A stretch of DNA of 55,005 nucleotides from Paracoccus sp. IB05. Its GTDB lineage: Bacteria > Pseudomonadota > Alphaproteobacteria > Rhodobacterales > Rhodobacteraceae. The position numbers were made by a program, and so were the translations under genes. The notes under the pieces are model-generated. The model was given only the letters and a program-made list of their open reading frames with translations, had not been told where the DNA came from and ran no database searches. Below are positions 1,181 through 34,124 of this stretch, piece by piece. The stretch covers positions 1 through 55,005 of the forward strand of contig NZ_JAEFCF010000036.1 in the NCBI RefSeq assembly GCF_016405985.1, in the 5' to 3' direction. The number at the start of each line of letters is the position of its first letter. The stretch's first letter is position 1.

Positions 1181-1596
1181 ACCTGCGGCCTCAAGCACAA
1201 TAGCGCACCACCGCCAGGCCAGGCTGACATGGCGCCGGCGGTGCCGTGTCTGTGGGAAGCCCCCGCACCATGGCCCACATCTTCACGGGGTGGCGTGGAT
1301 TTATGTCGTAGTGGACACATATTCCGTTCTCTCGATGCAATACACGTCGGTTTGCTGCGCGGGCACCGGAGGGGCACTTTCCTGGCAAACCTGCCCCGCA
1401 GAACGGCCTGCATGCCAGAGAGGTCGTTCGCATCGTCCGACTCCGGGGTCGGCCGCTGTCACGGGTGACCTCGGCAGTCTGACCCTCCGACTGTCCCAAA
1501 GCCTTCCTGCACATTCTGCAATGGCGGCATTTGATAAATGAATTATGCGCCCTGGCATCCCTGCGGCTACGGAAAGATGTAAGTAGGGAGTAGATT
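1181..1596. other. Intergenic region upstream of the catabolic cluster
   Basis: No convincing gene is present. The last about 100 bases should carry the promoter of the cluster that begins at 1597, and a good ribosome binding site (GGGAG, about 1586-1590) precedes that ATG. I could not pick out a confident -35/-10 pair or an operator palindrome. A short open frame around 1290-1340 reads like a transposase scrap, but it is too short to call. Confidence 0.35.
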
Positions 1597-1923
1597 ATGA
1601 CAGGCACTACGACTGGCACCTGGGTCACTGCGGTTTCTGTTGCCGAGCTGGATGACGGCGACGCAATGCGTTTCGATCATGAGGGCCGCTGTGTTGCGGT
1701 CTATAATGCTGGCGGCACATTTTACGCTTCGGCCGGCATTTGCAGCCATGAACATGCCTTCATGTCAGAGGGCTATCTCGATGGCCATATCATCGAATGC
1801 CCCCTGCATCAGGCGCTGTTTGATATCCGTACCGGCGCCAACCTGTCCCCTCCTGCGACGAAATCCCTGCAGACCTATCCGACCCGGGTGGAAAACGGAA
1901 AGGTGATGGTTCTGCTGGGCTGA
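1597..1923 (+). CDS. mocE: MocE-like Rieske [2Fe-2S] ferredoxin
   Basis: This 108-residue soluble ferredoxin would carry electrons from the reductase at 9578 to the oxygenase at 8592. The Rieske ligands are complete: C49-S-H51 and C68-P-L-H71, in a protein that is essentially just the Rieske domain. The length fits the MocE family of rhizopine catabolism (mocDEF), where ferredoxin, reductase and oxygenase together demethylate a methylated inosamine. It opens the + strand cluster and is followed after 64 bases by a sugar-binding protein gene, so transport and oxygenation are probably co-transcribed. A ribosome binding site GGGAG precedes the ATG. The family is certain; the substrate of the system is not known. 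Confidence 0.9.
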   Translation: MTGTTTGTWVTAVSVAELDDGDAMRFDHEGRCVAVYNAGGTFYASAGICSHEHAFMSEGYLDGHIIECPLHQALFDIRTGANLSPPATKSLQTYPTRVENGKVMVLLG

Positions 1924-1987
1924 TGAGACACGGGGCTGCGTCGGAGGAGACGCGCAGCGCCGCAAAGCAAAATCAAGGGAGGAACGA

Positions 1988-3292
1988 ATGAAACTGACAC
2001 GCCGCAGCGTGCTTGGCAGCGCATTGGCATCGACGGCTCTTGCAGCCATACCCACCGGAATTCTGCCGCATCTCGCGCAGGCTCAGACTGGCGGGGGGGG
2101 GCACAGCGTCCTGAACGCCCTGATCGCGCAATATGCGGCGGCCGCCGCCGAAGGGATGAAGAACGCCTCTGTCGCCGCGCTTTATGACCGCGACGCGTTC
2201 ACCGATTACCTCGAAGTCTATCCGGTGGCTGATCTGGTCGATGGCTTTGACTGGAAGCCGGGCATGGGTGCAACCTTTACCGGGCCCTATAGCAAGCTCG
2301 AGATCAAGGCCCCGTTCACCGATTACATTCCGCTTCCCGAGGGACCGGTGCTGGACCCTGCGAAGACCTATAAGATCGGCTTCGTCTTCCACGGCTTCAA
2401 CCATCCCTGGCTGATTGCGCTTGCAGATACCGCAGCCTGGGAGGCGGCGCGTCACCCGAATATCGAGATCGAAGTCGTCGATGCAGAATTCGATGACAAC
2501 AAGATGGGCCAGATCATTGATACCTGGGTGACGCGCCAGTTTGACGGGATCGTCCTCTGGCCCTCGCGCGAGGCGCCGATGGGGCCGCCGGTGGATCGTG
2601 CCATTGATGCCGGCATTCCGGTGGTCAGCGTTGACCGTCGCACCTCGTCGCAGAAGATCAGCTCTGAGGTTCTGGGGAACTTCTACGCGAATGGGCTGCA
2701 ACAGGGGCTTTATCTCAAGCATTCCGGCCAGACCGGCAAGATCATCCTCAACCGCAAGGATCTGGGCAGCACCGCCGATTCCATCCGCACCGGCGCATTC
2801 CTCCAGGTGATAGGCCAGGAAGAAGGCTTCGAGATTGCGGGGAACTACCACACCAACAGCCAGCGTTCGCTTGCGTTCCAGTCAACCGTGGATGCGCTTC
2901 AGGCGATCCGCGATGTTGCGGTCAGCTTCAATACCGGCGGCGAAGAGGCGATGGGCGCACTCGATGCGATCCGCGAAGGCAACCGGCTCGATTCCGCGCC
3001 CGATGGCAAGCGTATCGCCATCCTCGCCAATGATGATGCGAAAGAAGTGCTGCATGAGGTGGAACAGGGCAATATCGCCATGGTTTCCCCCTATACGCCG
3101 CTGATCGGTGATATCGGGATCCGGACCGTCCTTCTGCATATCGGGGCGAAAGAGGGGCTGAATGCCGCGCCGCCGCGCCTGGTGCTGACCCCGAACCTGC
3201 CGATGATCACCCGTGAAAAGATGACCATCGAAGGGGTCGAAACCATGACGCCGGCCGAATGGCCCTATGCTTACGGTCCGGCGGTCGCCTGA
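1988..3292 (+). CDS. CUT2-type sugar ABC transporter, periplasmic substrate-binding protein
   Basis: This is a 434-residue exported binding protein of the ribose/RbsB-like class that feeds the two permeases and the ATPase downstream. The N-terminus carries a twin-arginine-like motif (T4-R5-R6-S7-V8-L9), a hydrophobic stretch and a probable cleavage site after AQA near residue 32. The periplasmic-binding-protein-1 fold begins near residue 118 (KIGFVFHGFNHPW), and the pattern DGIVLWPS and AGIPVVSVDRR is typical of the family. It is about 100 residues longer than usual because an extra segment lies between the signal and the first lobe. The start is supported by GGGAGGAACGA before the ATG. Substrate inferred from context: a methylated sugar, polyol or cyclitol. 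Confidence 0.88.
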   Translation: MKLTRRSVLGSALASTALAAIPTGILPHLAQAQTGGGGHSVLNALIAQYAAAAAEGMKNASVAALYDRDAFTDYLEVYPVADLVDGFDWKPGMGATFTGPYSKLEIKAPFTDYIPLPEGPVLDPAKTYKIGFVFHGFNHPWLIALADTAAWEAARHPNIEIEVVDAEFDDNKMGQIIDTWVTRQFDGIVLWPSREAPMGPPVDRAIDAGIPVVSVDRRTSSQKISSEVLGNFYANGLQQGLYLKHSGQTGKIILNRKDLGSTADSIRTGAFLQVIGQEEGFEIAGNYHTNSQRSLAFQSTVDALQAIRDVAVSFNTGGEEAMGALDAIREGNRLDSAPDGKRIAILANDDAKEVLHEVEQGNIAMVSPYTPLIGDIGIRTVLLHIGAKEGLNAAPPRLVLTPNLPMITREKMTIEGVETMTPAEWPYAYGPAVA

Positions 3293-3314
3293 GCGGGCCC
3301 GGATCCGACGGCGC

Positions 3315-3343
3315 GCTTCCGGCTGGCTTTGCCACCCGGAAGC
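3315..3343 (+). terminator. Strong intercistronic hairpin after the binding-protein gene
   Basis: The arms at 3316-3322 (CTTCCGG) and 3336-3342 (CCGGAAG) pair perfectly. After one C:C mismatch, TGGC and GCCA extend the stem around a TTT loop. There is no T-run. Hairpins here, between a binding-protein gene and its permease genes, commonly let the binding protein be made in excess by partial termination or 3'-end protection. The role is inferred; the hairpin itself is plain in the sequence. Confidence 0.5.
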
Positions 3344-3383
3344 CGCCGGTTTCCTCCGCAGCCCTTGCCAACGGAGACTTCCC

Positions 3384-4382
3384 TTGTCTGATATCCAGAA
3401 AACTCACAACCCCGCGGTTTTTGTGCGGGGAGGGTCTCGTCTTGCCCGGGCCTTCGGGAGCGGTGGCGGTGACCTGAGCCGCCTTTTCGTGCTGATCGCG
3501 CTGCTGGTGAGTGGCGCGCTGCTGTTTCCCGGATTTGCCAGCCCCGGCAATGCCATGGTGATCCTGACCTCGGTTGCCGGGGTCGGGATCCTGGCGCTTG
3601 GCATGACCATGGTGATCATCACCGGCGAAATTGACCTTTCTGTCGCAGGGATTGCGGTGCTTTCGACCGTGATCGGCGGCGTCCTGCTGCCGGGGGGCTC
3701 TCCGGCCATGGTGATCGGGGCGGTTTTGCTGACCGGGCTGGTCCTCGGGCTGATCAACGGGATCCTCGTGGCCGCGCTGCGGCTGTCCTCGCTGATCGTG
3801 ACCCTGGCCACCATGGGGATCGCCAGCGCGCTGGCGAATATCATCTCACGCGGGCAGGCCAGCTACCCGAATGCAATGCCGGAATTCCTCTGGTTCGGGC
3901 GCGGCGCAATCGCCGGCCTGCCGGTGCCGGTTGCTCTGTTCCTGCTGGCGGCGGCTGTCGCGCTGGTGCTGACCGGATCGGCCAGCTTCGGGCGCAGGCT
4001 TTATGCCACCGGCGGCAATGCACGGGCCGCGGAACTGTCCGGTGTTCAGACCTGGAAAGTCCGGCTTACGGTTTTCGCCTTGTCAGGCCTTGCGGCAGCG
4101 CTGGTCGGCCTGATCGAAAGCGCGCGTCTGGGCTATATCAATCCTGCCGGTTTTGTGGGGCTGGAGCTGAAGGTTCTGGCGGTCGCGGTCCTTGGCGGTG
4201 CGGCGCTTTCCGGCGGTGTCGGCTCGGTCCGGGGGGCGGTTCTTGCCACGCTTATCATCGGCTGCATCAACAATCTGCTGAACCAGGCCGGGGTCAGTTT
4301 CTACATGCAGCAGGTGGTGACCGGGCTGGTGATCCTTGCGGTCGTGGCCCCCGGATTCAGCAAAAGGATTGATGTGCGATGA
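3384..4382 (+). CDS. CUT2-type sugar ABC transporter permease (first)
   Basis: This RbsC-like inner-membrane permease of about 332 residues is rich in hydrophobic helices. It contains the family hallmarks ITGEIDLSVAG early in the protein and GRRLYATGGNARAAELSG in the cytoplasmic loop that contacts the ATPase. The open frame extends upstream to 3267, into the binding-protein gene, but a TTG at 3384 with GGAGA upstream gives the usual family length and avoids an unlikely basic N-terminus. The stop overlaps the next start by four bases (ATGA), which indicates translational coupling. Confidence 0.87.
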   Translation: MSDIQKTHNPAVFVRGGSRLARAFGSGGGDLSRLFVLIALLVSGALLFPGFASPGNAMVILTSVAGVGILALGMTMVIITGEIDLSVAGIAVLSTVIGGVLLPGGSPAMVIGAVLLTGLVLGLINGILVAALRLSSLIVTLATMGIASALANIISRGQASYPNAMPEFLWFGRGAIAGLPVPVALFLLAAAVALVLTGSASFGRRLYATGGNARAAELSGVQTWKVRLTVFALSGLAAALVGLIESARLGYINPAGFVGLELKVLAVAVLGGAALSGGVGSVRGAVLATLIIGCINNLLNQAGVSFYMQQVVTGLVILAVVAPGFSKRIDVR

Positions 4383-5398
4383 GCATTGCAACAACGCCCC
4401 GCCACAGGGGGCCTGCGATCATACCGCAGCTGATCGGCAACCCGCTTCTGTGGTTGCTGGTGCTGATCCTGGCCCTGGGCCTGATGACCAGCCCGGTCTT
4501 CCTCAGCGGCAATAATATCGCCAATGTCCTGCGCAATGCCGCAGTGGTCGGTCTGCTGGCCACCGGTTTTTCGGTGGTGCTGCTGACCGGGCGGATCGAT
4601 CTGTCAATTGCCTCGGTCATGGTCTTTTCGGTGATTGCCGGCGTGCTGCTGACAACCGAGGCCGGGCGCTATCTCGGATATCGCTGGATAGTGCGCGGCA
4701 ATACATTTGCCGGCCCGGAAGCGCTGGCCATCGGGCTTTGCCTGGCAAGCGGGGCGCTGCTCGGGTTGCTGAACGGGCTTGGCTCCGTCGGGCTGAAGAT
4801 CACCTCTTTCATCTTCACCCTGATCACCATGACGGCCCTGCGCGGCGTCAGCTATCTGATCACCAATGGCGCGCCGGTCTATTATTCGGAAGGGCTGATG
4901 CGCTGGCTGGGCGAGGCGGTGTTCTTTGGCCTGCCGGTGGGCTTCATTCTGTTCCTCGCCATGGCGGTTCTGCTGCATCTGACCCTCAGCGGAACGGTTT
5001 TCGGCCGCAGGCTGATGGCCATAGGCGGCAATGAAAAAGCCGCGCGTTACAGCGGCATCAATACCGGGCTGATCGTGATTGCGGCCTTTGTGATCAGCGG
5101 ATTCTGCGCGGCACTGGCGGGTGTGCTGTTCACTGCCCGGCTGATGTCGGTCGAGCCGGCCCTGGCACAGGGCTATGAGCTGATCGCCATCACCATCGCG
5201 GTCATCGGCGGGATCAGCCTCGCGGGCGGCACCGGGTCGATCCCGAATGTCCTGCTCTCGGCGGTGACATTTTCGGCGGGGCTCAATCTGCTCGCGATCT
5301 GGGGGATCGCGACATGGTACCAGAACCTCGCCATTGGCATAGCCCTGATCGCAACCGTGATCCTGACGCGGGTGCTGAACAAGGCAAAACCGTCCTGA
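4379..5398 (+). CDS. CUT2-type sugar ABC transporter permease (second)
   Basis: This second RbsC-like permease (339 residues) is paralogous to the previous one, sharing LLTGRIDLSIASV and GRRLMAIGGNEKAARYSG. Two different permease subunits suggest a heterodimeric channel. It starts within the stop of the preceding gene. A segment after residue 95 (ETEAGRYLGY region) is longer than in the partner. It acts in the inner membrane with the binding protein at 1988 and the ATPase at 6977. Confidence 0.87.
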   Translation: MSIATTPRHRGPAIIPQLIGNPLLWLLVLILALGLMTSPVFLSGNNIANVLRNAAVVGLLATGFSVVLLTGRIDLSIASVMVFSVIAGVLLTTEAGRYLGYRWIVRGNTFAGPEALAIGLCLASGALLGLLNGLGSVGLKITSFIFTLITMTALRGVSYLITNGAPVYYSEGLMRWLGEAVFFGLPVGFILFLAMAVLLHLTLSGTVFGRRLMAIGGNEKAARYSGINTGLIVIAAFVISGFCAALAGVLFTARLMSVEPALAQGYELIAITIAVIGGISLAGGTGSIPNVLLSAVTFSAGLNLLAIWGIATWYQNLAIGIALIATVILTRVLNKAKPS

Positions 5399-5426
5399 GC
5401 GGCGGACATAACGGGAGGAGACAGCA

Positions 5427-6974
5427 ATGAACGGACATCTGACGCTTGGCGTCGATATCGGCACGACCAATGTCAAGGCATCCATCCTTGACACCCAGAG
5501 CGGCAGGATCGTCGCTTTCGGCTCACAGGAGCATCCGCTTTTTCACCCGCGCCCGGGCTGGGCCGAGCAGGAGGCCGACAATTACTGGTCGGCTGTGGTC
5601 TCGGCGATCCGGCAGTGCCTGGAACAGGGAAATTTCGCAGACCGGATCGCGGGGGTCGCGATCTCGGGTCTGGTCGGCGTCACCCTGCCCGTGAATGACA
5701 AGGGCCAGCCACTGCGCCCGGCGATGATCTGGATGGACAGCCGGTCAGAGGCCGAATGCGACGACATCCGCCGCCGCGTGGGCGAAAGCGAGATCAACCG
5801 TATCAACGGCAATCGCGTGGCGCCCTGGTTCATCGACCCCAAGGCGCTTTGGATGGCAAAACATGAGCCGCATATCTTTGCGGCCACGCATAAATTCCTC
5901 TCGCCATCGGGCTATTGCACCTTCCGCATGTCGGGCGCCTTTACAATGAACACGGGCGATGCAGGTCTCTGCTATGCCTATGAATATCAGAAAGCCGCCT
6001 GGAACGCCAAAGCCGCCGAGGCGATCGGCATCCCGATCGAGAAACTGCCCCGTCTTTACCAAAGCCATGAGGTGGTCGGCGAAGTGACGCGCCGTGCCGC
6101 CGAGGAAACCGGTCTACGGGCGGGAACCCCGGTCGCGGCGGGCGGCACCGATATCAGCTCTGCGGCGCTTGGGGTCGGGGTGACGCGGCCCGGTCAGGCC
6201 TTCTATTCGATGGGGACCGGATCAAACCTCGGGGTCATCATTCCGACCGAACAGCGACTGGATGAATTCCGCGTCCTGAAATGGCCGCATGTGCTGCCGG
6301 GGCTGACGATGTTCGATGCGCCGATGGCCTTTACCGGCGCCTCGCTGAAATGGTTCCGCGATCAGTGGGGCGACAGTGAATGGCAGCTGGCCGAGCGGAT
6401 GGGCGAGAATGTCTTCGACCTCTTTACCGCCCAGGCCCGCCATGTGCCGCCCGGCGCGAACGGGCTTTTGTATCTGCCCTATCTGGGCAATTCGCTTGCC
6501 CCGAACTGGAACAGCAATGCGACAGGCGTTTTCTTCGGTGTGCGTCCGACCACCGGGCGCTCAGATATGATCCGCGCCCTGATCGAGGGTGTGGCCTTTG
6601 ATCTGCTGTCGAACTTCCGCATCGCCACCGAGGCCGGAGCCGGGATCGACACGCTGGTGCTGAACGGCGGCCCGACCAAAAGCCGGTTCTGGAACCAGAT
6701 CACCGCCAATGTGGTGAACCGCCCGCTGCAGGTGCCGGATATCGGCGAGGCCGCGCCCGTAGGCGATGCGGTTCTGGCAGCGGTTGCCGCCGGGATCTAC
6801 CCCGATCCGGTCACGCCGCTCGCCGATATCGTCCGCATCCGCGAGACCATCGACCCCGACCCCGCCGCCCATGAACGCTATATGGAGTTCTTCTCGATCT
6901 GGCAGGAGGTGTACCAGAACCTGCGCCCGACCATGGACCGCCATCGCGGCCTCATGGAACGGCTGGAGGGCTGA
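5427..6974 (+). CDS. FGGY-family carbohydrate/polyol kinase
   Basis: This 515-residue kinase resembles xylulokinase and is predicted to phosphorylate the imported or demethylated sugar or polyol using ATP. It begins with the FGGY phosphate-binding motif LGVDIGTTNVKAS and has AGGTDISSAALG at the start of the second domain. Near the C-terminus it carries VLNGGPTKSRFWNQITANV, the FGGY signature region. Length is normal for the family. A clean GGAGGAGACAGCA precedes the ATG. It sits between the permeases and the ATPase, so kinase and importer are produced together. With the GlpD-type dehydrogenase at 13768 it recalls the kinase plus polyol-phosphate dehydrogenase pairing of erythritol catabolism; that parallel is inference. 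Confidence 0.88.
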   Translation: MNGHLTLGVDIGTTNVKASILDTQSGRIVAFGSQEHPLFHPRPGWAEQEADNYWSAVVSAIRQCLEQGNFADRIAGVAISGLVGVTLPVNDKGQPLRPAMIWMDSRSEAECDDIRRRVGESEINRINGNRVAPWFIDPKALWMAKHEPHIFAATHKFLSPSGYCTFRMSGAFTMNTGDAGLCYAYEYQKAAWNAKAAEAIGIPIEKLPRLYQSHEVVGEVTRRAAEETGLRAGTPVAAGGTDISSAALGVGVTRPGQAFYSMGTGSNLGVIIPTEQRLDEFRVLKWPHVLPGLTMFDAPMAFTGASLKWFRDQWGDSEWQLAERMGENVFDLFTAQARHVPPGANGLLYLPYLGNSLAPNWNSNATGVFFGVRPTTGRSDMIRALIEGVAFDLLSNFRIATEAGAGIDTLVLNGGPTKSRFWNQITANVVNRPLQVPDIGEAAPVGDAVLAAVAAGIYPDPVTPLADIVRIRETIDPDPAAHERYMEFFSIWQEVYQNLRPTMDRHRGLMERLEG

Positions 6975-6976
6975 GC

Positions 6977-8470
6977 ATGGATATGTCTGCGCCCTTGCTG
7001 GAACTGCGCGGGATCGGCAAGTCCTTTCCCGGCGTGCGTGCGCTCCATGATGTCAGCCTTGATCTGCGGGCGGGCGAGGTCCATGCGCTGCTTGGCGAGA
7101 ACGGCGCAGGCAAATCGACACTGCTCTCGTGCATGAACGGGTTGTTGCGCCCGGATGAGGGCAAGATCCTGATCGCTGGCCGCGAGGTGCAGTTCGCGCG
7201 CCCTGCGGCCGCGATTGCGGCGCGGTTGGCTATGGTCCACCAGGAGCTGGTGCTGTGCAGCAATCTGAGCGTGGCGCAGAATATCTGGCTGGGCCGTGAA
7301 ATCCGGCGGGGCGGCGGCAGGATTGACCGCGCCGCGACCCGGGACCGCACCCGCGAGCTGCTGGCCATGGCCGGACTGGATCTGGATCCGGATTGCATCC
7401 TGGGCACTCTGGGCCTGGCCGAACAGCAGATCGTCGAAATCTGCAAGGCGCTGGCCAGCGATCCGCGCATTATCGTGCTGGATGAACCAACCGCCTCTCT
7501 GGATGACGACCAGGTGCAGCGCCTGCTTGGAGTGGTGCGCCGCCTCAGAGATCGCGGTCTGGGCATCATCTATGTCTCGCACCGTCTGAACGAGGTGCTG
7601 GAGCTTGCCGACCGCATGACCGTGCTGCGCGACGGGCGTCATGTCGTCACCCGTGATCTGAACGGTATGACCGAAGACGGGATCGTCTCTTACATGGTCG
7701 GCACCAACCGCGCGGGTAACGGGTTCGCCTGGTCAGCCCGACCGATTGGCGCCCCGGTGCTGGAGGTCGAGCGCGCTGTAACACGCGGCAGGCTGAAAGA
7801 TGCCTCCTTGCGGGTCCATGCCGGCGAAATCGTGGGGGTCGCGGGTCTTCTCGGCTGCCACCGCGAGGAACTGGCCCAGACGATTTTCGGCACTGTGCCG
7901 TTGCAAAGCGGGGCGATCCGCATTGACGGGCACAGCCCCCGCCTCACCTCGCCTATGGCGGCGATCCGGGCGGGCGTGGCCTATATGCCGGCGGACCGCA
8001 AGGAACAGGGGCTCGTCCTGGGCATGTCGGTCGGCGAGAATATCACCATGACCGAACTTGACCGCCTTTCGCGGCTCGGCCTGATCCGGCGCAGTGCGGC
8101 GCGACGGATGAGCCTTGATCTGATGCGCCGGCTGGGCATCCGCGCCAGTGGACCGGGTCAGCGCGCGGGGCAGCTTTCGGGCGGCAATCAGCAAAAGATC
8201 GTCATCGCGAAATGGATGACGAAGCCCGGCCGGGTGGTGATCGCCGAAGATCCCACACGCGGTGTCGATATCGGGGCGAAAAGTGAGATCTGGGGCGCCC
8301 TGCGCAGCCTTGCCGAAGAGGGGCGCGGTTTGCTGGTTATGACAACCGAGCTGCAGGAAATGATGCAGGTCTGCGACCGCATTGTTGTGATGAGCCGCGG
8401 CCGCGTCACCGGGGAATTCACCCGCGATGCCTTTGATGTGGAACGGATCACGGCCTGCTTCTTCTCGTGA
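6977..8470 (+). CDS. CUT2-type sugar ABC transporter, duplicated ATP-binding protein
   Basis: This 497-residue cytoplasmic ATPase has two fused nucleotide-binding domains, as in RbsA, XylG and MglA. Domain 1 has Walker A GENGAGKST (residues 40-48) and Walker B VLDEPTASL. Its signature (LGLAEQQIVEICKAL) is divergent. Domain 2 has a degenerate Walker A (GVAGLLGCHREE, no GKS/T), normal for this family, but an intact LSGGNQQK signature and AEDPTRGVDIG. It follows the kinase with a two-base gap, and GGAGGG lies upstream. It energises the permease pair at 3384 and 4379. Confidence 0.9.
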   Translation: MDMSAPLLELRGIGKSFPGVRALHDVSLDLRAGEVHALLGENGAGKSTLLSCMNGLLRPDEGKILIAGREVQFARPAAAIAARLAMVHQELVLCSNLSVAQNIWLGREIRRGGGRIDRAATRDRTRELLAMAGLDLDPDCILGTLGLAEQQIVEICKALASDPRIIVLDEPTASLDDDQVQRLLGVVRRLRDRGLGIIYVSHRLNEVLELADRMTVLRDGRHVVTRDLNGMTEDGIVSYMVGTNRAGNGFAWSARPIGAPVLEVERAVTRGRLKDASLRVHAGEIVGVAGLLGCHREELAQTIFGTVPLQSGAIRIDGHSPRLTSPMAAIRAGVAYMPADRKEQGLVLGMSVGENITMTELDRLSRLGLIRRSAARRMSLDLMRRLGIRASGPGQRAGQLSGGNQQKIVIAKWMTKPGRVVIAEDPTRGVDIGAKSEIWGALRSLAEEGRGLLVMTTELQEMMQVCDRIVVMSRGRVTGEFTRDAFDVERITACFFS

Positions 8471-8476
8471 AACGTG

Positions 8477-8492
8477 CCGGGCAGATGCCCGG
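8477..8492 (+). terminator. Short GC-rich stem-loop after the transporter ATPase gene
   Basis: CCGGGC (8477-8482) and GCCCGG (8487-8492) form a 6-bp stem with an AGAT loop seven bases after the ATPase stop. No T-run follows, so it may attenuate rather than end transcription. The 121-base gap to 8592 is the largest break inside the cluster and could also hold a secondary promoter. Confidence 0.35.
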
Positions 8493-8591
8493 TCGGGGTG
8501 AAAGCAATAACCCCATGCAGAACATGAATTTAACGCCTGAAAGCCGGCCCTGTAGCCTGACAGAGGCTTAGTCTGAGAGGAGGATTCTCGA

Positions 8592-9581
8592 ATGGATGGA
8601 AACGGCTCTGCCAGCTATGCTGGCATTGGCGGGATCGGCAGCAATGTCTGGCCGCTCACTGGCGCGGAAATGATTTCGCGCAGCAAACTCAAAGAGTTGC
8701 GGGCACGTAGCAATGGGCCGGGACTGGTCAACCTTGCGGTGCATATCTCGGCGCTGGCGGTAACCGGCTTTCTGGTCTGGCTGGCCTCGGGCAATCTCTG
8801 GCTGCAGATCCCGGCCATGGTGCTTTACGGCACGATCATCGTGCTGACTTTTGCGCCACTGCATGAATGTTCGCATGGCACGGCCTTCAGATCGCGCTGG
8901 CTGAACTACCTCGTCGGCATCGCCATCGCGACGGCGACGCTCAGGCCCTTCCTTTATTTCAAATACCGCCATGCCGCGCATCACACCTATACGCAGCATG
9001 ATGATCTCGACCCCGATATCGTGCCCTTCCCCACTTCGCTGCGCGAATATTTCCGTCTGGTACTGGGCGCGTCTTTCTGGCCGAAACTGCTGGGCACTTT
9101 GTGGCGCGGCGCGACCGGGCGCTACAATGAGGAAGAGAAAAGTTTCCTGCCCGAAAGCGTGCGCGGCCGTGTTTCGCTGGAAATCCGGCTGGATGTTCTG
9201 CTTTACATCACCATTGCGGCGGCCTCGGTCTATTACGGCAGCATGATTGCGCTGACCTACTGGCTGATCCCGCGCTTTCTGGGTGAGCCCGTTCTGCGCG
9301 CCATCCGCATGGCCGAACATACCGGTGCCGAGGAAAGCCCGGACCTGCTGGCAAATACCCGCACCACGCTGGCCAATCCGATCTTCCGCAAGCTCTACTG
9401 GAACATGCCCTTCCATGCCGAACATCACCTGGCATCCTCGGTCCCGTTCCATGCGCTTGGTCAGTTGCATGACCATGTGCAGCCGCATCTGAAACATGTC
9501 AGCCGGGGCTATATCCAGGTCCATCGCGAGATCCTGGCCGAGGTGCTGCGCCTTCAGCGCGAGAAAAGGCAAGCACGATGA
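8592..9581 (+). CDS. MocD-like membrane di-iron oxygenase (fatty acid desaturase superfamily)
   Basis: This 329-residue integral membrane protein carries the three histidine boxes of the desaturase/hydroxylase superfamily: HECSH (91-95), HAAHH (127-131) and HAEHH (275-279, within NMPFHAEHHL). Hydrophobic segments lie around residues 45-88, 103-122 and 203-230. The closest functional class I recall is MocD, the oxygenase of rhizopine O-demethylation; related proteins hydroxylate terpenoids and alkanes. Neighbours support a three-component system: a Rieske ferredoxin at 1597 and a reductase overlapping its stop (ATGA at 9578). A good ribosome binding site (AGGAGG) precedes the ATG. The predicted reaction is O2-dependent hydroxylation of a methyl or methylene group; the substrate is unknown. 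Confidence 0.87.
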   Translation: MDGNGSASYAGIGGIGSNVWPLTGAEMISRSKLKELRARSNGPGLVNLAVHISALAVTGFLVWLASGNLWLQIPAMVLYGTIIVLTFAPLHECSHGTAFRSRWLNYLVGIAIATATLRPFLYFKYRHAAHHTYTQHDDLDPDIVPFPTSLREYFRLVLGASFWPKLLGTLWRGATGRYNEEEKSFLPESVRGRVSLEIRLDVLLYITIAAASVYYGSMIALTYWLIPRFLGEPVLRAIRMAEHTGAEESPDLLANTRTTLANPIFRKLYWNMPFHAEHHLASSVPFHALGQLHDHVQPHLKHVSRGYIQVHREILAEVLRLQREKRQAR

Positions 9582-10813
9582 GCATGGATGCGGGCCGGAT
9601 TGCCGGAACTGCCAGAATTGTCGTCATCGGGTCCGGCCATTCGGCCGGGCGGCTGATCGCCCAGCTGAAATCTCTGGGCCACAGCGGTCGGATCGTGCTG
9701 ATCGGCGAAGAGGCACATCCGCCCTATGAGCGGCCCTGGCTCTCGAAATCGATGCTGACCGAGCCGGTGGAACCAGCGCTGCCTGCTATTCTGCCTGACC
9801 TGGAGGGCGTGGAATTCCGGCCCTCGCGTCAGGCGGTCGCGATTGACCGCAAGGCGGGGCGGGTGCGGCTGGAGGATGGCAGCGACGAGGCCTATGACAT
9901 TCTCGTCCTCGCCACCGGTCTGGCCCCACGCAGGCTTGCGCTTTGTGATGGTCTGGAAGACCGTGTGCTCTGCCTGCACAAACTGGACGAGGCGCGCGCA
10001 TTGCGTGCCCGTCTGGGCCAGGAAACCGGAGGCGGCAGTGTCGCGCTGGTCGGGGCAGGTTTTATCGGGCTGGAGGTGGCCTCATCGGCCCGTCAGCTGG
10101 GCTGCGCCGTCGATATCATCGAAAAGGCACCCCTGCCGCTGATGCGCGCCCTGCCAGAGGCCCTTTGCCGCCGGATCGCCGCATTGCATGAGGCAGAGGG
10201 CTCACGCCTGCATCTGGGAACCGGGGTGACTGCCTTAGCACCCGAGGGCGACGGTGTCCGGCTGAGCCTGGAGAATGGCTGCCATATTTCGGCAAAGACG
10301 GTTGTTCTGGGCATGGGCGGCACACCGCGTGACGCGCTGGCCCGGGAGGCAGGGCTTGATCTTGCCGACGGGATCCTGACCGATGCGGCCGGCCGCAGCT
10401 CGGACCCGCAGATCTTCGCAATCGGCGATGTCGCCCGCCGGCGCTCCGGCACGACGGAAGCGGCCGGCCTCAGGCTGGAATCCTGGCGCAATGCCGAGGA
10501 CAGCGCCATTGCCGCCGCCGCTGCAATCCTGGATGCGCCCCCGCCTCCGCCCCCGGGCGCGCCGTCTTTCTGGACCGAGCAGCTGGGCCAGCGCATCCAG
10601 TTTATCGGACAGCCGGTCGCAGATGGCGAGCTCTGGCAGTCGGATGAGGCCTTCCGCCCCGGCTATGGCGCCTTTCTCATGCGCGACGACTGCCTGCACC
10701 AGGCGGTTTTCGTCAATGCCCCCAAGGTCATGCGCGCCGCCCGCGAGGCCTTTCGCCGGGATGGCAGAATTGCCGCCGACACCCTCTCTGCGCTTGGTTT
10801 CCGGCGCATCTGA
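9578..10813 (+). CDS. MocF-like FAD/NAD(P)H ferredoxin reductase
   Basis: This 411-residue flavoprotein passes electrons from NAD(P)H to the Rieske ferredoxin. The N-terminal FAD motif reads VVIGSGHSAG (residues 15-24), a histidine variant of the usual GxGxxG. A second Rossmann motif, VALVGAGFIGLEVA, lies near residue 155 for NAD(P)H, and IFAIGDVA near residue 285 is the conserved second FAD contact of rubredoxin/ferredoxin reductases. It overlaps the oxygenase stop by four bases and is followed after 30 bases by the dehydrogenase gene. The family call is firm; the NADH or NADPH preference cannot be read from this. Confidence 0.88.
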   Translation: MSMDAGRIAGTARIVVIGSGHSAGRLIAQLKSLGHSGRIVLIGEEAHPPYERPWLSKSMLTEPVEPALPAILPDLEGVEFRPSRQAVAIDRKAGRVRLEDGSDEAYDILVLATGLAPRRLALCDGLEDRVLCLHKLDEARALRARLGQETGGGSVALVGAGFIGLEVASSARQLGCAVDIIEKAPLPLMRALPEALCRRIAALHEAEGSRLHLGTGVTALAPEGDGVRLSLENGCHISAKTVVLGMGGTPRDALAREAGLDLADGILTDAAGRSSDPQIFAIGDVARRRSGTTEAAGLRLESWRNAEDSAIAAAAAILDAPPPPPPGAPSFWTEQLGQRIQFIGQPVADGELWQSDEAFRPGYGAFLMRDDCLHQAVFVNAPKVMRAAREAFRRDGRIAADTLSALGFRRI

Positions 10814-10843
10814 TCCCTTCCAGTTCTTTACGGAGACGCAAAG

Positions 10844-11953
10844 ATGATCCGTTCATCCGCAGCGATTTGCACTGCGGCGGGCCGCCCGCTGGAGATTGCC
10901 GAAGTCATGGTCGCCCCACCCCGCGCCGGCGAGGTTCTGGTCGAGATCGACCATACCGGCCTGTGCCATACCGATCTGACTGCGCTTGAAGGCGCGAATG
11001 CCACGGCGGTCTATCCGCTGATCCCCGGCCATGAAGGCGCGGGGCGGGTGGTGGAAACCGGCCCGGGCGTCACCGGGCTGAAGCCTGGCGACCATGTCAT
11101 CCCGCTTTACGGGCCGGAATGCGGTGACTGCGCCATGTGCCGGTCAGACCGCACCAATCTGTGCTGGACGATCAAACCCACCCGTGACCGCGGCGTGATG
11201 CCCGAGGGCAGCGCCCGCTTCAGCCGCGACGGCGAGGTCATCCATCACTTCATGGGCACCTCGACCTTCTCACGCTATACAGTCGTGCCGGAAATCGCCC
11301 TGTGCCGGATCCGCCAGGATGCCCCCCTGAATGAGGTCTGCCTGTTCGGCTGCGGCGTCACCACCGGTGTCGGGGCCGCGCTGTCTGAGGTGCGGCCAGG
11401 CGACCGCGTTGCGGTTTTCGGCCTGGGCGGCATCGGCATTAATATCATTCAGGGCGCGCGTATCGCCGGCGCCAGCCAGATCATCGGCATCGACCTGTCC
11501 GGCAGCAAGACCTCCCTCGCCCAGAGCTATGGCATGAGCCATTTCATCCGCCCGGACCCGGCTGGCAGTGACACGGTCACCGAGATCCGCGATCTGACCC
11601 AGGGCGGCGTCGACGTGGCCTTTGAATGCACCGGCGTGCTTTCCGTCATGCGCCTGGCCCTCGACGCAGCGGTGCCGGCCTGGGGCAAAGCGGTGCTGCT
11701 GGGGGTAGAGCCGCCCGGCTCCACCCTTTCCGTACCGCCGGTCCAGGTGCGTTACGGCAAATCGCTGCTGGGCAGCTATTTCGGCGGCGTCAAAGGCCGG
11801 AGCGGGCTGGGCGCGCTGATCGACCGCTATATGGCCGGAGAGATCGACCTGAAAGGGCAGATCACCCACCGGATGCCGCTCGCCCGGATCAATGAGGGGT
11901 TTGATCTCATGCGCGCCGGGACATCGGTGCGCTCTGTCGTCAGTCTGGTCTGA
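10844..11953 (+). CDS. Class III-type zinc alcohol dehydrogenase (S-hydroxymethylglutathione/formaldehyde dehydrogenase-like)
   Basis: This 369-residue MDR dehydrogenase has catalytic zinc ligands C41, H63-E64 and C169. The structural zinc cysteines are C93, C96, C99 and C107, and the NAD motif is GLGGIG at 192-197. The stretch around HFMGTSTFSRYTVVPE and FGCGVTTG is characteristic of class III enzymes that oxidise S-hydroxymethylglutathione. In this cluster it would remove formaldehyde released by oxidative O- or N-demethylation, but an ordinary alcohol substrate is also possible. A second protein with the same opening pattern begins at 54953. GGAGACGCAAAG precedes the ATG. Confidence 0.85.
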   Translation: MIRSSAAICTAAGRPLEIAEVMVAPPRAGEVLVEIDHTGLCHTDLTALEGANATAVYPLIPGHEGAGRVVETGPGVTGLKPGDHVIPLYGPECGDCAMCRSDRTNLCWTIKPTRDRGVMPEGSARFSRDGEVIHHFMGTSTFSRYTVVPEIALCRIRQDAPLNEVCLFGCGVTTGVGAALSEVRPGDRVAVFGLGGIGINIIQGARIAGASQIIGIDLSGSKTSLAQSYGMSHFIRPDPAGSDTVTEIRDLTQGGVDVAFECTGVLSVMRLALDAAVPAWGKAVLLGVEPPGSTLSVPPVQVRYGKSLLGSYFGGVKGRSGLGALIDRYMAGEIDLKGQITHRMPLARINEGFDLMRAGTSVRSVVSLV

Positions 11954-11956
11954 ACC

Positions 11957-12811
11957 ATGGCACACGAAGATGAAGCGGATTGGGTGTTTCGTGACCGTCA
12001 TCCCGAGCGCGGCGAGGTCTATGCCCGCATGGACAGCGAAAGTGACCGGGCCTATGCGACGCTGAAACTGCAGCGCGGCCTGCGCTATGGTGACCATCCG
12101 CGTGAGGCCTTCGACCTTTTTCCCGGCCATTCAGGCGCGCCGCTGGTGGTCTTCTTTCATGGTGGGTACTGGCAGTCTCTCTCGCGCGAACGCTTTGCCT
12201 TTGTTGCAGACCCCCTGGTCCGCGCCGGATTCAATGTCGCTCTGCCCGGCTATCCATTGGCGCCAGAGGCTTCGCTGAGCGCGATTGTTTCCGCAGCCAG
12301 TATCGCAGTGAAAGTCGCCACAGAGGCCGCAACTGCGGCTGGCCTTGCCCCATCCGGCTGGATCGCCGCAGGTCATTCTGCGGGGGCACATCTGGCACTG
12401 ATGACCGCGCTTTCACCGCAATCTGTTCCATTGCGTGGTGTGGTCGCCATCAGCCCGATCTGTGATCTTGACCCCTTGCGTGGCACCAGCCTCGACAGCG
12501 CGCTGAAGCTGACCAGCGAGGATGTCCGGAGCCTGAGCCCTGCGCGGCTGCCTCTTCCGTCCGCCAGGGTGCAGATGATTGTCGGGGCAGATGAAACTGC
12601 GGGCTTCCGGGGTCAGGCCTTCAGCCATACCGCCCGCATGGTGCAGGCCGGCCATGATTGTTCCTGCCGTGAATTGCCCGGCCTCAATCACTACACGATT
12701 CCCCTTGAGATTCGTCGCCCTTACTCGTCGATCATGGCTGCAGTCATCGAGCTGACCGGAACACCGGCAGGCCAGGGAGGAACAGGACTATGCTTACAAG
12801 GGAACGTCTGA
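11957..12811 (+). CDS. Alpha/beta hydrolase of the HGGYW (kynurenine formamidase-like) type
   Basis: This 284-residue serine hydrolase has an oxyanion motif HGGYW at 68-72 and a nucleophile elbow GHSAG (140-144, Ser142). Further on are an acidic residue in GADE near 213 and a histidine in GLNHY near 237. HGGYW is typical of arylformamidase-like hydrolases. It follows the dehydrogenase by three bases, and its 3' end overlaps the LysR start. It could hydrolyse a formyl ester, for example S-formylglutathione, in place of the usual FGH; that is inference. Alternatives are a lactonase or a formamidase acting on the substrate skeleton. Confidence 0.8.
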   Translation: MAHEDEADWVFRDRHPERGEVYARMDSESDRAYATLKLQRGLRYGDHPREAFDLFPGHSGAPLVVFFHGGYWQSLSRERFAFVADPLVRAGFNVALPGYPLAPEASLSAIVSAASIAVKVATEAATAAGLAPSGWIAAGHSAGAHLALMTALSPQSVPLRGVVAISPICDLDPLRGTSLDSALKLTSEDVRSLSPARLPLPSARVQMIVGADETAGFRGQAFSHTARMVQAGHDCSCRELPGLNHYTIPLEIRRPYSSIMAAVIELTGTPAGQGGTGLCLQGNV

Positions 12812-13764
12812 ATTACATCAACTTCAACCAGCTGCGCTCTTTCTTTGCGGTGGGGCGCGAGCTGAGCTTCACCAAAGCGGCGGATCTGCTGTGCATCGGG
12901 CAGCCGACGGTCACCACCCAGGTGAAATCGCTTGAAGAGACCTATGGCAGGCAGCTCTTTTTGCGAACCCCTTCCGGGGTCGAGCTGACGACAGAGGGCG
13001 ATGCGCTGATGCTGATCGCCCGCCAGATATTCGCGCTGGAACAACGGGCCCATGCGCTGCTGACCAGCCGGCCCGAGATCGCCGGGCGGCTGCATATCGG
13101 GACCGTGGGGCCGTTTTTCGTGATGAAGCTGCTGGCGGGCTACAGTGACAGGTTCCCGCTGGTCCATGTCACGCTGGAAAGCGGCAGTTCGGACCGGATT
13201 TACCGCAAGCTGATCGACTACAAGGTGGATGTTGCGATCCTTGGACGCGATTACGCTGATCCCCGGCTTGATGATGTGGCTCTGGGCGAACATGAGGTCA
13301 TGCTGCTGCTGCCGGTCGCGCATCCCTGGGCACAGCGGCAGAAGATCATGGTCGAAGAGCTGGACGGGGTGCGCATGATCTGGCGCGAAAGCGGCTCCAT
13401 GACCCGGCGTGCCTTTGAGGGGATCCTCGAAAAGCGCAGTGTCCGGCCCTCGGTGGTTATGGAACTGGCGCGGGATTCCATGATCGAGGCAACCGCTGCC
13501 GGTCTCGGCATCGGGATTATTTCGCGCACCGAATTCGACAGCGATCCGCGGCTGGTGAGCCTGCCGCTCGCCGGAGAAAAGCCGGTGACCCATTCCTATG
13601 CCGCCTGCCTGAAAGAGCGCCGGTCGATCGGGTCGATCGATGCCTTCATGACCATGGCGCGCAGTGCCGCCGACGCTGCGCAATCGGCACCGGCCGAGAC
13701 CAATACAGACCGCCCGCAAGGCAATCTCGTCGACATCAGGCGGGCGAAGCAGAAAACAGGATGA
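12790..13764 (+). CDS. LysR-family transcriptional regulator
   Basis: This 324-residue LysR protein has an N-terminal winged helix (FNQLRSFFAVGRELSFTKAA, with QPTVTTQVKSLEE as recognition helix) and a periplasmic-binding-like effector domain from about residue 95. The pattern RESGSMTRRAFE and AAGLGIGIISRTEFDSDPRL recalls the LysR subgroup often linked to aminoethylphosphonate genes, but that subgroup controls varied pathways. It is encoded inside the operon on the same strand, starting 22 bases before the hydrolase stop with GGAGG upstream, which is unusual because LysR genes are commonly divergent. It probably regulates the 1597-15333 cluster. The C-terminal about 30 residues are low complexity. 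Confidence 0.9.
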   Translation: MLTRERLNYINFNQLRSFFAVGRELSFTKAADLLCIGQPTVTTQVKSLEETYGRQLFLRTPSGVELTTEGDALMLIARQIFALEQRAHALLTSRPEIAGRLHIGTVGPFFVMKLLAGYSDRFPLVHVTLESGSSDRIYRKLIDYKVDVAILGRDYADPRLDDVALGEHEVMLLLPVAHPWAQRQKIMVEELDGVRMIWRESGSMTRRAFEGILEKRSVRPSVVMELARDSMIEATAAGLGIGIISRTEFDSDPRLVSLPLAGEKPVTHSYAACLKERRSIGSIDAFMTMARSAADAAQSAPAETNTDRPQGNLVDIRRAKQKTG

Positions 13765-13767
13765 CAG

Positions 13768-15333
13768 ATGGCGAAGCCGATAGCGGATATGTTGATTGTG
13801 GGCGGTGGTGTGAATGGCTGCGGCATCGCGCGGGACGCTGCGGGACGTGGCCTGAAGGTTATCCTTTGCGAAAAGAACGATCTCGCCGAAGGCACGTCGT
13901 CGCGCTCGACCAAGCTGTTCCATGGTGGGTTGCGCTATCTGGAGTATTTCGAATTCCGTCTCGTGCGCGAAGCCTTGCGCGAAAGGGAGACCCTGCTGGC
14001 GGCCATGCCCCATATCGCGCGGCCGATGCGCTTCGTCCTGCCCTTTCACCCGTCGATGCGGTTCGAGGGGGGCACGCCGGCATCGCGTTTGCTGGGCCGG
14101 TTCATGCCATGGCTCCGGGATCGTCGCCCCGCCTTTGTGATACGACTGGGCCTTTTCCTTTATGACCATATGGGCGGGCGCAAAATCCTGCCGCCGACCC
14201 GCCGGCTCAATCTGCGCAAGGATGAGGCGGGTCAGGCGCTGAACGGCGCGTTCCGGAAGGGATGGGAATATTCGGATGCGGCGGTCGATGATGCCCGGCT
14301 GGTCGTGCTGAATGCGCGCGATGCCCAAAGGCTGGGCGCGGACATCCGGACCCGCAGCGAGGTCGTCGCCGCAAGGCGTCAGGCCAATTTCTGGGAGGTC
14401 GATGTTATTGGCCCGAAAGGGCCGGAAACACTGCGCGCGCGGCTGGTCGTCAATGCCGCCGGCCCCTGGGTCGGCGGGATCAGCGCAAAACTGTCTCCGA
14501 GGTCCGAGCGCGGGCTGCGGCTTGTGCGCGGCAGCCATATCGTGGTGCCCCGCATCTTCGGCCATGACCGCGCCTATATCCTGCAGGGCCCTGACGGCCG
14601 CATCGTCTTTGCCATTCCCTATCATGAGGATTTCACGCTGATCGGCACGACGGATGTCGACCACAGAGGCTCGCCTGATCAGGTGAACTGCTCGGATGAA
14701 GAGGTCCGTTATCTGTGCGATTTTGTCAGCCGTTGTTTCGAAAAGCCGGTCCTGCCCTCGGATGTGGTCTGGCGTTATGCCGGGCTGCGGCCGCTGCTGG
14801 ATGATGGTGCGGGCGATGCCCGATCCGCCACCCGGGACTATTCGCTTGACCTGGAACAGAATGACCGGGCGCCTCTGCTGACGGTTCTGGGCGGCAAGAT
14901 CACCACCTATCGAAAGCTCTCCGAGGCTGCGGTCGATCTGATCGCGCCCCTCTTCACCAGCTGCAAGGCCGCCTGGACGGCCATGGCACCGCTGCCGGGT
15001 GGAGATTTCGACCCGGGGCAGGCGGATGCTCTGGCACAGGCACTGACCCGGCGGCATCCCCAACTCCCACCCGCCACCTCCCGCAGACTGATACGTGCCT
15101 ATGGTACCGAGGCCCTGGTGATGATGGAGGAGGGGCCGGGCGCCGATCTCGGTGGCGGCCTGCATGAGGCCGAACTGCGCTGGATGGTTGAGCGTGAATT
15201 TGCCACGACACTTGATGACGTCATCTGGCGCCGAAGCAAGCTTGGTTTGCGTGTTGCACCGGAGGGGCGCCGCAAGATCCGGGCCTGCCTCGAGCGCCTG
15301 ATCCTGGAGCAGAGCCGGTATCGCAGACAGTAG
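13768..15333 (+). CDS. glpD: FAD-dependent glycerol-3-phosphate dehydrogenase (GlpD family)
   Basis: This 521-residue flavoprotein closely follows the GlpD pattern. It has a dinucleotide fold (VGGGVNGCGIARDAAGRG, residues 11-28), HGGLRYLE near 52, the strongly conserved RGSHIVVPR, IGTTDVD and GGKITTYRKLSE. It would oxidise a polyol 3-phosphate to the keto form and pass electrons to ubiquinone at the membrane. An extra segment with GGTPASRLLGRFMPWL near residue 105 makes it slightly longer than E. coli GlpD. It starts three bases after the LysR stop. Here it may act on the phosphorylated product of the FGGY kinase (as EryB-type paralogs do) rather than on glycerol 3-phosphate; its specificity is not readable. 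Confidence 0.87.
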   Translation: MAKPIADMLIVGGGVNGCGIARDAAGRGLKVILCEKNDLAEGTSSRSTKLFHGGLRYLEYFEFRLVREALRERETLLAAMPHIARPMRFVLPFHPSMRFEGGTPASRLLGRFMPWLRDRRPAFVIRLGLFLYDHMGGRKILPPTRRLNLRKDEAGQALNGAFRKGWEYSDAAVDDARLVVLNARDAQRLGADIRTRSEVVAARRQANFWEVDVIGPKGPETLRARLVVNAAGPWVGGISAKLSPRSERGLRLVRGSHIVVPRIFGHDRAYILQGPDGRIVFAIPYHEDFTLIGTTDVDHRGSPDQVNCSDEEVRYLCDFVSRCFEKPVLPSDVVWRYAGLRPLLDDGAGDARSATRDYSLDLEQNDRAPLLTVLGGKITTYRKLSEAAVDLIAPLFTSCKAAWTAMAPLPGGDFDPGQADALAQALTRRHPQLPPATSRRLIRAYGTEALVMMEEGPGADLGGGLHEAELRWMVEREFATTLDDVIWRRSKLGLRVAPEGRRKIRACLERLILEQSRYRRQ

Positions 15334-28458: not shown

Positions 28459-29190
28459 CTATGATCTGCGGGCAATACAATAAGACGGGCGATAGGTCAA
28501 AGTGGGCGGCCCTGCCGCGTTGATCTCTCGCAGCAGGCCGCGCAGCCGGCCCGGCGCAAGCCGCCCTGCGGCAAAGCCGTTCACGCCGCTGGCGCGCAGA
28601 TGCGCAAAAAGATCTTCGGCGCTTTCGAACTGCAGGGTGATGGCCTCATCGCGGAAGACAAGAACCTCCATCGCGGCGGGCAGGGCATCACATATGCCGG
28701 CAGCGTTTAGATAGGAGGGCGCCCCCCGGGGCAGGCCCCAGCCGGAAAATTCGGGGAAATTGTCGGGGCCAAAGCCTGACAGCGCCAGCAGGCCCGCGGG
28801 GCGCAGGGCCTGCCCCGCTTTGGCCAGCAAGGCGCGCGGATCGGCGATCCATTGCAGCATCGAGGCGCTGGCGAGCAGATCCAGATCGCGCGGGAAATCA
28901 CAGGCGGCGGCGTCTCCGGGCAGAGGATATACCCGCCCATGCCCCGGCCAGGCCAGCTGCGGCAGCGGGGCGACAAGATCATTCAGCCAGATGTCCTCGG
29001 GGCACAGGCGCGCAAGTTGCCGTGTCAGAAGGCCGGTGCCATGGCCCAGTTCCAGCACCCTGCGGGCGGTGCTGATATGGGAGAAGATGCCTTCGGCCAG
29101 GCGTCCGGCGATCCGGGCCTGCGCCAGCGCCGCCCCTTCGTAGCTGTGATGATGGCGGGAAAACTCCGCCGCGATCCGCGCCATCATCAT
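28459..29190 (-). CDS. bioC: Malonyl-ACP O-methyltransferase BioC
   Basis: This 243-residue SAM-dependent methyltransferase would methylate malonyl-ACP to open pimelate synthesis. Motif I reads VLELGHGTGLL near residue 44, the acidic LNDLVAPL follows, and SASMLQWIADP is typical of BioC. It shares ATGA with the bioG stop. As the last gene of bioBFDAGC it pairs with BioG, which removes the methyl group at the end. Motif I has histidine where a small residue is common (ELGHGTG), which is tolerated. Confidence 0.88.
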   Translation of the reverse strand: MMMARIAAEFSRHHHSYEGAALAQARIAGRLAEGIFSHISTARRVLELGHGTGLLTRQLARLCPEDIWLNDLVAPLPQLAWPGHGRVYPLPGDAAACDFPRDLDLLASASMLQWIADPRALLAKAGQALRPAGLLALSGFGPDNFPEFSGWGLPRGAPSYLNAAGICDALPAAMEVLVFRDEAITLQFESAEDLFAHLRASGVNGFAAGRLAPGRLRGLLREINAAGPPTLTYRPSYCIARRS

Positions 29191-34116: not shown

Positions 34117-34124
34117 TGATTGCC

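Follow-up and report, generated by a model that had tools for sequence, protein, structure and literature searches.

A conserved eleven-gene cassette of Paracoccus sp. IB05 that may import, oxidatively O-dealkylate and phosphorylate a small polyhydroxylated compound

The mocDEF genes are responsible for demethylation of the rhizopine 3-O-methyl-scyllo-inosamine, and catabolism of the erythritol/threitol type involves a CUT2 importer, an FGGY kinase and a GlpD-type dehydrogenase. Here, we analyse a gene cluster sharing features with both, which is located on the 55,005-nt contig NZ_JAEFCF010000036.1 of Paracoccus sp. IB05, part of a 5.3-Mb draft genome; this whole stretch is referred to below as the window. 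The cluster consists of twelve genes (positions 1597-15333), all on the + strand and with a spacing of -26 to +121 bases between the chosen open reading frames (ORFs), and the first eleven of these constitute a conserved cassette encoding a Rieske ferredoxin, a CUT2 importer, an FGGY kinase, a MocD-like hydroxylase, a ferredoxin reductase, an alcohol dehydrogenase (ADH), an alpha/beta hydrolase and a LysR-type regulator. On balance, we favour the view that they form a self-contained catabolic cassette for import, oxidative O-dealkylation (likeliest O-demethylation), oxidation of the one-carbon (C1) unit without a glutathione adduct, and phosphorylation.

As in the rhizopine system, here represented by the rhizopine-type locus L195, the cassette combines a desaturase-type hydroxylase, a Rieske ferredoxin and an FAD reductase with a sugar-type binding protein. 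However, its hydroxylase is only 30-32% identical to the MocD-type proteins of L195 and L138 (mutual identity, 83%); mocA, mocC, mocR and PanB-like or PurU genes do not form part of it; and it contains in addition a kinase, a full CUT2 importer, the ADH and the hydrolase. The absence of mocA and mocC had been noted in an initial annotation of the window, and indeed no MocA-, MocC- or MocR-type gene is found among the twelve. With erythritol/threitol-type catabolism, the cassette shares the presence of an importer and an FGGY kinase in one operon, but it adds an oxygenase system, and the GlpD gene is not conserved. The order of a class III-type ADH gene and, behind it, an alpha/beta hydrolase gene is also that of FrmA and FrmB, which mediate glutathione-dependent oxidation of formaldehyde, although in the cassette the hydroxymethylglutathione residues are altered, the hydrolase belongs to another family, and the host has FrmA-like and S-formylglutathione hydrolase genes elsewhere.

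In Pseudomonas syringae, mocDEF is located next to a second xylose isomerase gene in the absence of the other moc genes (PMC5132102). The resemblance to the cassette is that mocDEF, separated from the remaining moc genes, adjoins a sugar-catabolism gene, and the difference is that an FGGY kinase, an importer, an ADH and a hydrolase are not mentioned in the accessible part of that article; by analogy, the arrangement hints that moc-type oxygenases may serve sugar pathways. Porphyran users encode a P450 that demethylates 6-O-methyl-D-galactose and, next to it, an esterase and a zinc ADH (PMC10033563). This system also clusters an oxygenase and its redox partners with an esterase and a zinc ADH distinct from formaldehyde dehydrogenases, but it employs a P450 instead of a di-iron hydroxylase, and the available portion of the article makes no mention of a CUT2 importer or an FGGY kinase. 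Our literature search, in which the original mocDEF papers did not surface, retrieved no description of the cassette gene set, of a PanB-like partner of mocDEF or of hemiacetal oxidation in sugar demethylation.

Conservation and distribution of the cassette

Scanning a genome collection with the hydroxylase yielded 290 related stretches; among the best 80, which were kept, 14 are 64-80% identical to it (loci L009-L022), one from Streptomyces (L023) is 50% identical, and the others are at most 47% identical. A gene-by-gene check established that the order Rieske ferredoxin, binding protein, permease, permease, FGGY kinase, ATPase, hydroxylase, reductase, ADH, hydrolase and LysR, on one strand, is maintained in all 17 complete other loci (L009-L016, L018-L022, L135, L136, L216 and L218). 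L017 and L219, whose contigs end inside the cassette, show part of it and were not counted as complete (the L017 ADH was counted where covered), and L217 and L220, duplicates of L010 and L015, were dropped from the counts. The hosts are rhizobia and other alphaproteobacteria, together with the betaproteobacteria Caballeronia and Xenophilus. Flanks are shared in three pairs, L009/L135, L011/L136 (both S. terangae) and L018/L019, and the remaining pairs have no flanking proteins in common, or only isolated ones at 30-53% identity, leaving 14 distinct flank contexts for the 17 loci. The co-occurrence of the eleven genes is not due to chance, because the same order and strand are found in every one of these loci despite their distinct contexts. 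As these contexts are spread over alphaproteobacteria, Caballeronia and Xenophilus, the eleven genes probably move between bacteria as a unit. The combination of import, MocD-type oxidation and phosphorylation in a single operon, as read in the initial annotation, is borne out as a conserved unit by the 17 loci; of the nine families whose co-occurrence elsewhere it suggested checking, those encoded at 1597-13764 do so in 17 of 17 loci and GlpD in none.

The same association emerges when the kinase is taken as the starting point. Kinase-only searches (E 1e-150) gave 2 positives among 394 genomes of the host family, 8 among 394 of one rhizobial family and, in a class-wide sample of 385 genomes, only the Paracoccus genome itself. 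A MocD-type hydroxylase is encoded beside the kinase in 8 of the 10 kinase-positive genomes, so that the kinase and mocDEF-like genes, whose failure to occur together elsewhere would have spoken against the initial annotation, are found side by side. Five of the ten were already known from the hydroxylase scan, one (G1166) is S. terangae, with DNA 99.96% identical to that of L011 over 4530 bases, and the contig of G882 ends short. No kinase locus lacking the hydroxylase was found in these searches wherever the contig reaches far enough. Among plasmid records, two kinases are 83% identical and the other 1116 are below 60% (the next listed being 35.5%), and for the hydroxylase the identity falls from 79% to 41%. 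The kinase and the hydroxylase are private clades that are found together, and the cassette would represent a portable, unnamed pathway with its own sugar kinase and hydroxylase.

The kinase is 61-92% identical among the 10 loci compared, the binding protein 64-77% identical to 13 relatives, and the hydroxylase 61-91% identical among 8 complete cassettes. In these 8 cassettes, the hydrolase (34-61%) and the reductase (38-59%) are less conserved than the kinase, binding protein, hydroxylase and ADH, which fits possible helper roles. Compared with the reductases of the 7 other cassettes, which are 39-59% identical among themselves, that of the window shows an identity of 38-48%, while the window hydroxylase is 65-80% identical across the same cassettes; because of this much lower identity, the reductase gene seems to evolve fast or to be replaced at times. 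The window LysR is 46-66% identical to the LysR proteins of 7 complete cassettes.

Proposed pathway and fate of the removed carbon

In the pathway that we propose, the ribose-type CUT2 importer would take up a small polyhydroxylated compound carrying an O-alkyl ether, likeliest O-methyl. Electrons would pass from NAD(P)H through the reductase and the Rieske ferredoxin to the MocD-type membrane hydroxylase, which would hydroxylate the ether carbon; we infer that methyl is the leaving group. The ADH and the alpha/beta hydrolase would convert the removed C1 unit oxidatively into formate, bypassing the usual glutathione adduct, and the private FGGY kinase would phosphorylate the freed ketose or polyol, the product entering central metabolism directly. 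GlpD would stand outside this pathway, and the LysR protein would control the cassette from a conserved upstream motif. The hydroxylase has the three histidine boxes of desaturase-type di-iron hydroxylases (HECSHG, HAAHH and HAEHH).

The cassette ADH scores 445 bits against TIGR02818 (class III/FrmA), below the cut-off of 543.95, which is exceeded by a match in 35 of 41 genomes of the order. In human numbering, the residues described as touching S-hydroxymethylglutathione or as lining the anion pocket are R114, D55, E57, T46, Q111 and K283 (PMC6409631). At these positions, the window ADH has N55, T57, W111, K114 and P283. All 19 cassette ADHs aligned (a first set of 17, and those of L216 and L218) have N55, S/T57, W111 and K114, with T46 kept, and position 283 is P, A or V in the 18 sequences that cover it; the zinc ligands are kept in the first 17. 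In contrast, 30 of 30 canonical enzymes of the order, each of them scoring above the TIGR02818 cut-off, have D55, E57, R114 and K/R283, with Q or T at position 111. In a tree of 50 rows, which is unrooted and includes one very long row, the 16 cassette ADHs cluster together (88/76) and fall outside the 100/97 branch that contains human ADH5, 31 enzymes from genomes of the host family and the ADH of L027. Judged by these residues and relationships, the cassette ADH is probably not an ordinary formaldehyde dehydrogenase. A second ADH, 49-54% identical to that of the cassette, was present in all 6 cassette genomes tested (one partial), and the Paracoccus genome has an FrmA-like C-terminus at a contig start, followed by an S-formylglutathione hydrolase gene scoring above its cut-off.

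The hydrolase gave no esterase D match in profile searches, which returned PF07859, PF20434, PF12697 and HaHSL-type matches instead. It resembles hormone-sensitive lipases and kynurenine formamidases (HaHSL family, 144 bits, cut-off 320), the nearest solved structures being 9n8r, 2pbl and kynurenine formamidase 4e11, and the HGGYW and GxSxG motifs are found in 16 of 16 cassette hydrolases.

Among the enzymes of one-carbon metabolism, PanB is a hydroxymethyltransferase, and the substrate of PurU is formyl-folate. A genome of the host family, G186 (locus L140), keeps the binding protein, permeases, kinase (77% identical), ATPase and LysR, together with a divergently transcribed set encoding a hydroxylase (47%), a reductase, a ferredoxin and a PanB-like protein (PF02548; 75 bits to panB, cut-off 207.55). 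The cassette ADH is absent from G186 genome-wide, and no cassette-type hydrolase is found within the available stretch of the locus. Because a PanB-like C1-transferase gene is present in their place, this exchange suggests that the cassette ADH and hydrolase handle the removed C1 unit. PanB-like genes are also located beside mocDEF- or mocDE-type genes in L138, L195, L196 and L207, the last of these from the Paracoccus genome, which encodes a full PanB and two PanB-like proteins; in L197, a PanB-like gene accompanies another desaturase. L195 contains in addition PurU, a MocA-family gene, a binding protein and an aminotransferase-type regulator. Given the activities of PanB and PurU, the PanB-like and PurU genes fit C1 disposal, and the cassette ADH and hydrolase appear to do the same job. 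The proposal in the initial annotation that the embedded dehydrogenase oxidises formaldehyde is doubtful, because its glutathione site is altered in 19 of 19 sequences, although the gene swap in L140 speaks for its acting on the removed carbon in some way. In the cassette, an oxygenase unrelated to the porphyran P450 carries the same two kinds of partner, some related systems having a PanB-like protein instead, and the cassette makes the fate of the methyl carbon in oxidative sugar demethylation directly testable.

Some related observations are recorded here. In L195, the PanB-like and formyltetrahydrofolate deformylase genes lie directly behind mocDEF (5992-7733), a position suggesting passage of the methyl carbon through folate. 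L207 (Paracoccus C20:233000-250000) encodes, on the minus strand at 4475-10665, a second and classical MocD (64% identical to that of L138), a Rieske ferredoxin, a PanB-like protein and CUT2 components beside inositol-catabolism-type genes, and is a possible methyl-inositol demethylation locus. L206 (Paracoccus C43:4000-21000) encodes, near one another on the plus strand at 1892-8669, a PhyH-type dioxygenase, a CUT2 ATPase, a PfkB kinase, an RbsD-like and a PanB-like protein, and possibly demethylates a methylated ribose with the same C1 partner and a different oxygenase. G186 has two FrmA proteins above the cut-off that are 51-52% identical to the cassette ADH, the same level as the second ADHs mentioned above. 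The second of them, on the cassette contig, was considered as a C1 link and dropped, as it sits between SBP56-family genes, which we take to be involved in methanethiol oxidation.

Several points weigh against the pathway as proposed. Desaturase-type enzymes commonly hydroxylate or desaturate C-H bonds, and the low identity to MocD-type proteins does not mark the cassette hydroxylase as a MocD orthologue. The altered residues of the ADH do not tell what it binds, and plant enzymes without a Q111 equivalent still work (PMC6409631). The smallest set seen, in Streptomyces L023, consists of the hydroxylase, kinase (62% identical), ferredoxin and LysR only, with no cassette ADH genome-wide and no cassette-type hydrolase in the available stretch of the locus. 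In L027 (7817-10903), a class III ADH whose glutathione-site residues are all canonical is encoded near a related hydroxylase (45%), the two lying about 1 kb apart with an unidentified ORF between them; this arrangement also agrees with release of a C1 unit. The exchange of genes was seen in one genome, G186, whose PanB-like gene is the sole PF02548 gene there and may have a role in pantothenate synthesis. A screen of 95 other hydroxylase loci (L023-L088 and L106-L134) yielded no PanB-like gene; many of these loci are short, and L106 stops ahead of the G186 gene. L137 and L139 gave none either. The association is partly a product of selection, since PanB or its family led to L195-L197, L206 and L207.

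How the carbon is oxidised could be explained in a particular way, which we put forward tentatively, the balance being against it. Hemiacetals of formaldehyde should last long enough in water, and the ADH might oxidise the hemiacetal R-O-CH2OH made by the hydroxylase, ahead of its collapse, to the formate ester R-O-CHO, from which the hydrolase would yield R-OH and formate, with no free formaldehyde; this would be the chemistry of FrmA and FrmB performed on the sugar itself instead of on glutathione. Moc-type systems would, on the same logic, pass the C1 unit to folate via the PanB-like enzyme, and the logic could by analogy extend to the ADH and esterase of the porphyran system. If hemiacetal capture proves true, a demethylation strategy that avoids free formaldehyde would occur in more than one system. 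The porphyran ADH belongs to a similarity cluster other than that of the glutathione enzymes, and its deletion cripples growth on 6-O-methyl-galactose and not on galactose, yet the pure enzyme oxidises neither 6-O-methyl-galactose nor, with several thiols, formaldehyde (PMC10033563). However, it has a narrow active site, prefers aromatic aldehydes and acts predominantly in reduction, and the authors conclude that it takes no part in a subsequent reaction of the demethylation (PMC10033563), all of which argues against hemiacetal capture there. The word "hemiacetal" is absent from the text of that article.

We consider it rather unlikely that the two enzymes serve ordinary detoxification of freed formaldehyde, as a second pair of thiol-dependent formaldehyde dehydrogenase and formylthiol hydrolase. 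The adjacency of a class III-like ADH and a hydrolase, as in frmAB, the retention of T46 and the zinc ligands, and the canonical ADH near the related hydroxylase of L027 are compatible with such a function; at L027, formaldehyde may normally be set free and dealt with by a normal FrmA. Yet the glutathione-site replacements at positions 55, 57, 111, 114 and 283 are consistent among the cassette ADHs, the enzyme falls under the TIGR02818 cut-off, the hydrolase is not an esterase D, which the genome has elsewhere, and the cassette genomes tested carry another class III-like ADH.

Plain C-H or methyl hydroxylation, for example of a deoxy or branched sugar, with the ADH oxidising the new alcohol and no C1 unit released, would be a common activity for a desaturase-type enzyme as distant from MocD as this one. 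It seems quite unlikely to us, since the gene that replaces the ADH and hydrolase in G186 encodes a PanB-like C1-transfer protein, which is 44% identical to the one encoded beside mocDEF in a rhizopine-type locus.

Very unlikely, in our view, is a lactone route in which the ADH oxidises the lactol of the freed sugar, the hydrolase opens the lactone and the FGGY kinase phosphorylates the aldonate. An ADH and an alpha/beta hydrolase are plausible as a dehydrogenase/lactonase pair and the kinase matches an FGGY gluconokinase model at 236.7 bits, but this is far under the cut-off of 648.55, and both G186 and Streptomyces L023 have retained the kinase without the cassette ADH anywhere in the genome or a cassette-type hydrolase in the available stretch of the locus.

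Finally, the initial annotation had the freed polyol phosphorylated and then oxidised by the GlpD protein, a step recommended by the position of the gene, 3 bases behind LysR on the same strand, and by the FGGY/GlpD combination that recalls erythritol catabolism; we regard it as extremely doubtful and reject GlpD as a pathway member, since a search at E 1e-3 gave no GlpD match in the 17 other cassettes, nor in L140 or L023; beyond LysR, at least 2.8 kb of sequence is available for 16 of the 17 and only 130 bases for L012. The window GlpD is a typical glycerol-3-phosphate dehydrogenase (NF008899, 685.5 bits, cut-off 360) and shares 60% identity with another GlpD encoded in the same genome.

Sequence features of the window

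The features of the cluster are listed in Table 1. All families named in the initial annotation are present, at or near the coordinates given there and on the + strand, although the ferredoxin and the ADH score under the curated cut-offs for MocE and class III/FrmA, respectively; for the ferredoxin, the TIGR02377 (MocE) cut-off is 136.15, and the L195 ferredoxin reaches 185.8 bits.

Table 1. Coordinates of the cluster genes and the upstream motif in the window.
Feature	Position	Strand	Evidence
Conserved motif CATTTGATAAATGAAT (CATT-N5-AATGAAT), candidate LysR operator/promoter element	1528..1543	+	Upstream conservation
Rieske [2Fe-2S] ferredoxin, MocE/HcaC-like	1597..1923	+	PF00355 62.8 bits; TIGR02377 100.9 bits
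CUT2 substrate-binding protein, conserved N-terminal extension of ~90 residues	1988..3292	+	PF13407 residues 130-387
CUT2 permease 1	3267..4382	+	PF02653
CUT2 permease 2	4379..5398	+	PF02653
FGGY carbohydrate kinase, private clade	5427..6974	+	PF00370/PF02782; XylB 338.4 bits
CUT2 double ATPase, AraG/RbsA-like	6977..8470	+	PF00005, two stretches
Membrane fatty-acid-desaturase-type di-iron hydroxylase, MocD-like	8592..9581	+	PF00487 129 bits
Ferredoxin reductase, HcaD/MocF-like	9578..10813	+	PF07992, PF14759
Divergent class III-like zinc ADH	10844..11953	+	TIGR02818 445 bits; altered hydroxymethylglutathione site
Alpha/beta hydrolase, HGGYW and GHSAG motifs	11957..12811	+	PF07859, PF20434; HaHSL family 144 bits
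LysR-type regulator, final gene of the conserved cassette	12790..13764	+	PF00126/PF03466
GlpD-type FAD glycerol-3-phosphate dehydrogenase, local addition outside the cassette	13768..15333	+	NF008899 685.5 bits

The strict motif CATT-N5-AATGAAT is found upstream of the Rieske gene in 13 of the 18 cassette loci, which include some close relatives and are not all independent. Its distance to the ferredoxin gene, counted from the estimated start, is 69-105 bases, and the 415,964 bases of these loci contain no further copy on either strand. The part AATGAATT is present in 17 of the 18 loci, L022 having neither form, and a copy with one mismatch was read by eye between the divergent operons of L140.

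The importer has the composition expected of the CUT2 class, with a Peripla_BP_4 binding protein, BPD_transp_2 permeases and a double ATPase. Against the model of the rhizopine binding protein, the cassette protein scores 41.2 bits (cut-off 420), and its predicted fold is nearest to ribose-type binders, in a low-confidence model (mean pLDDT 62.6) that many sugar binders match about equally and from which no ligand was inferred. Between its signal peptide and sugar-binding domain lie about 90 residues (window 1988-2375) with many positions invariant in 14 of 14 sequences. The start of permease 1 at 3267 is probably too far upstream, because most relatives align only from about residue 31-88. 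The kinase remains below the XylB cut-off (TIGR01312, 380.25), and as XylB and the AI-2 kinase match about equally, no choice of substrate was made from its sequence.

A degenerate IS240/IS6-type transposase fragment (DDE_Tnp_IS240; 786-1127) closely precedes the cassette, as would fit acquisition by horizontal transfer. An antisense open frame of 814 codons (12721-15165, minus strand) opposite LysR and GlpD is probably an artefact of codon bias. Further downstream on the minus strand (28459-37866), genes for a radical-SAM protein with a BATS domain, two aminotransferases, a methyltransferase and an ABC importer constitute a biotin-synthesis-like set.

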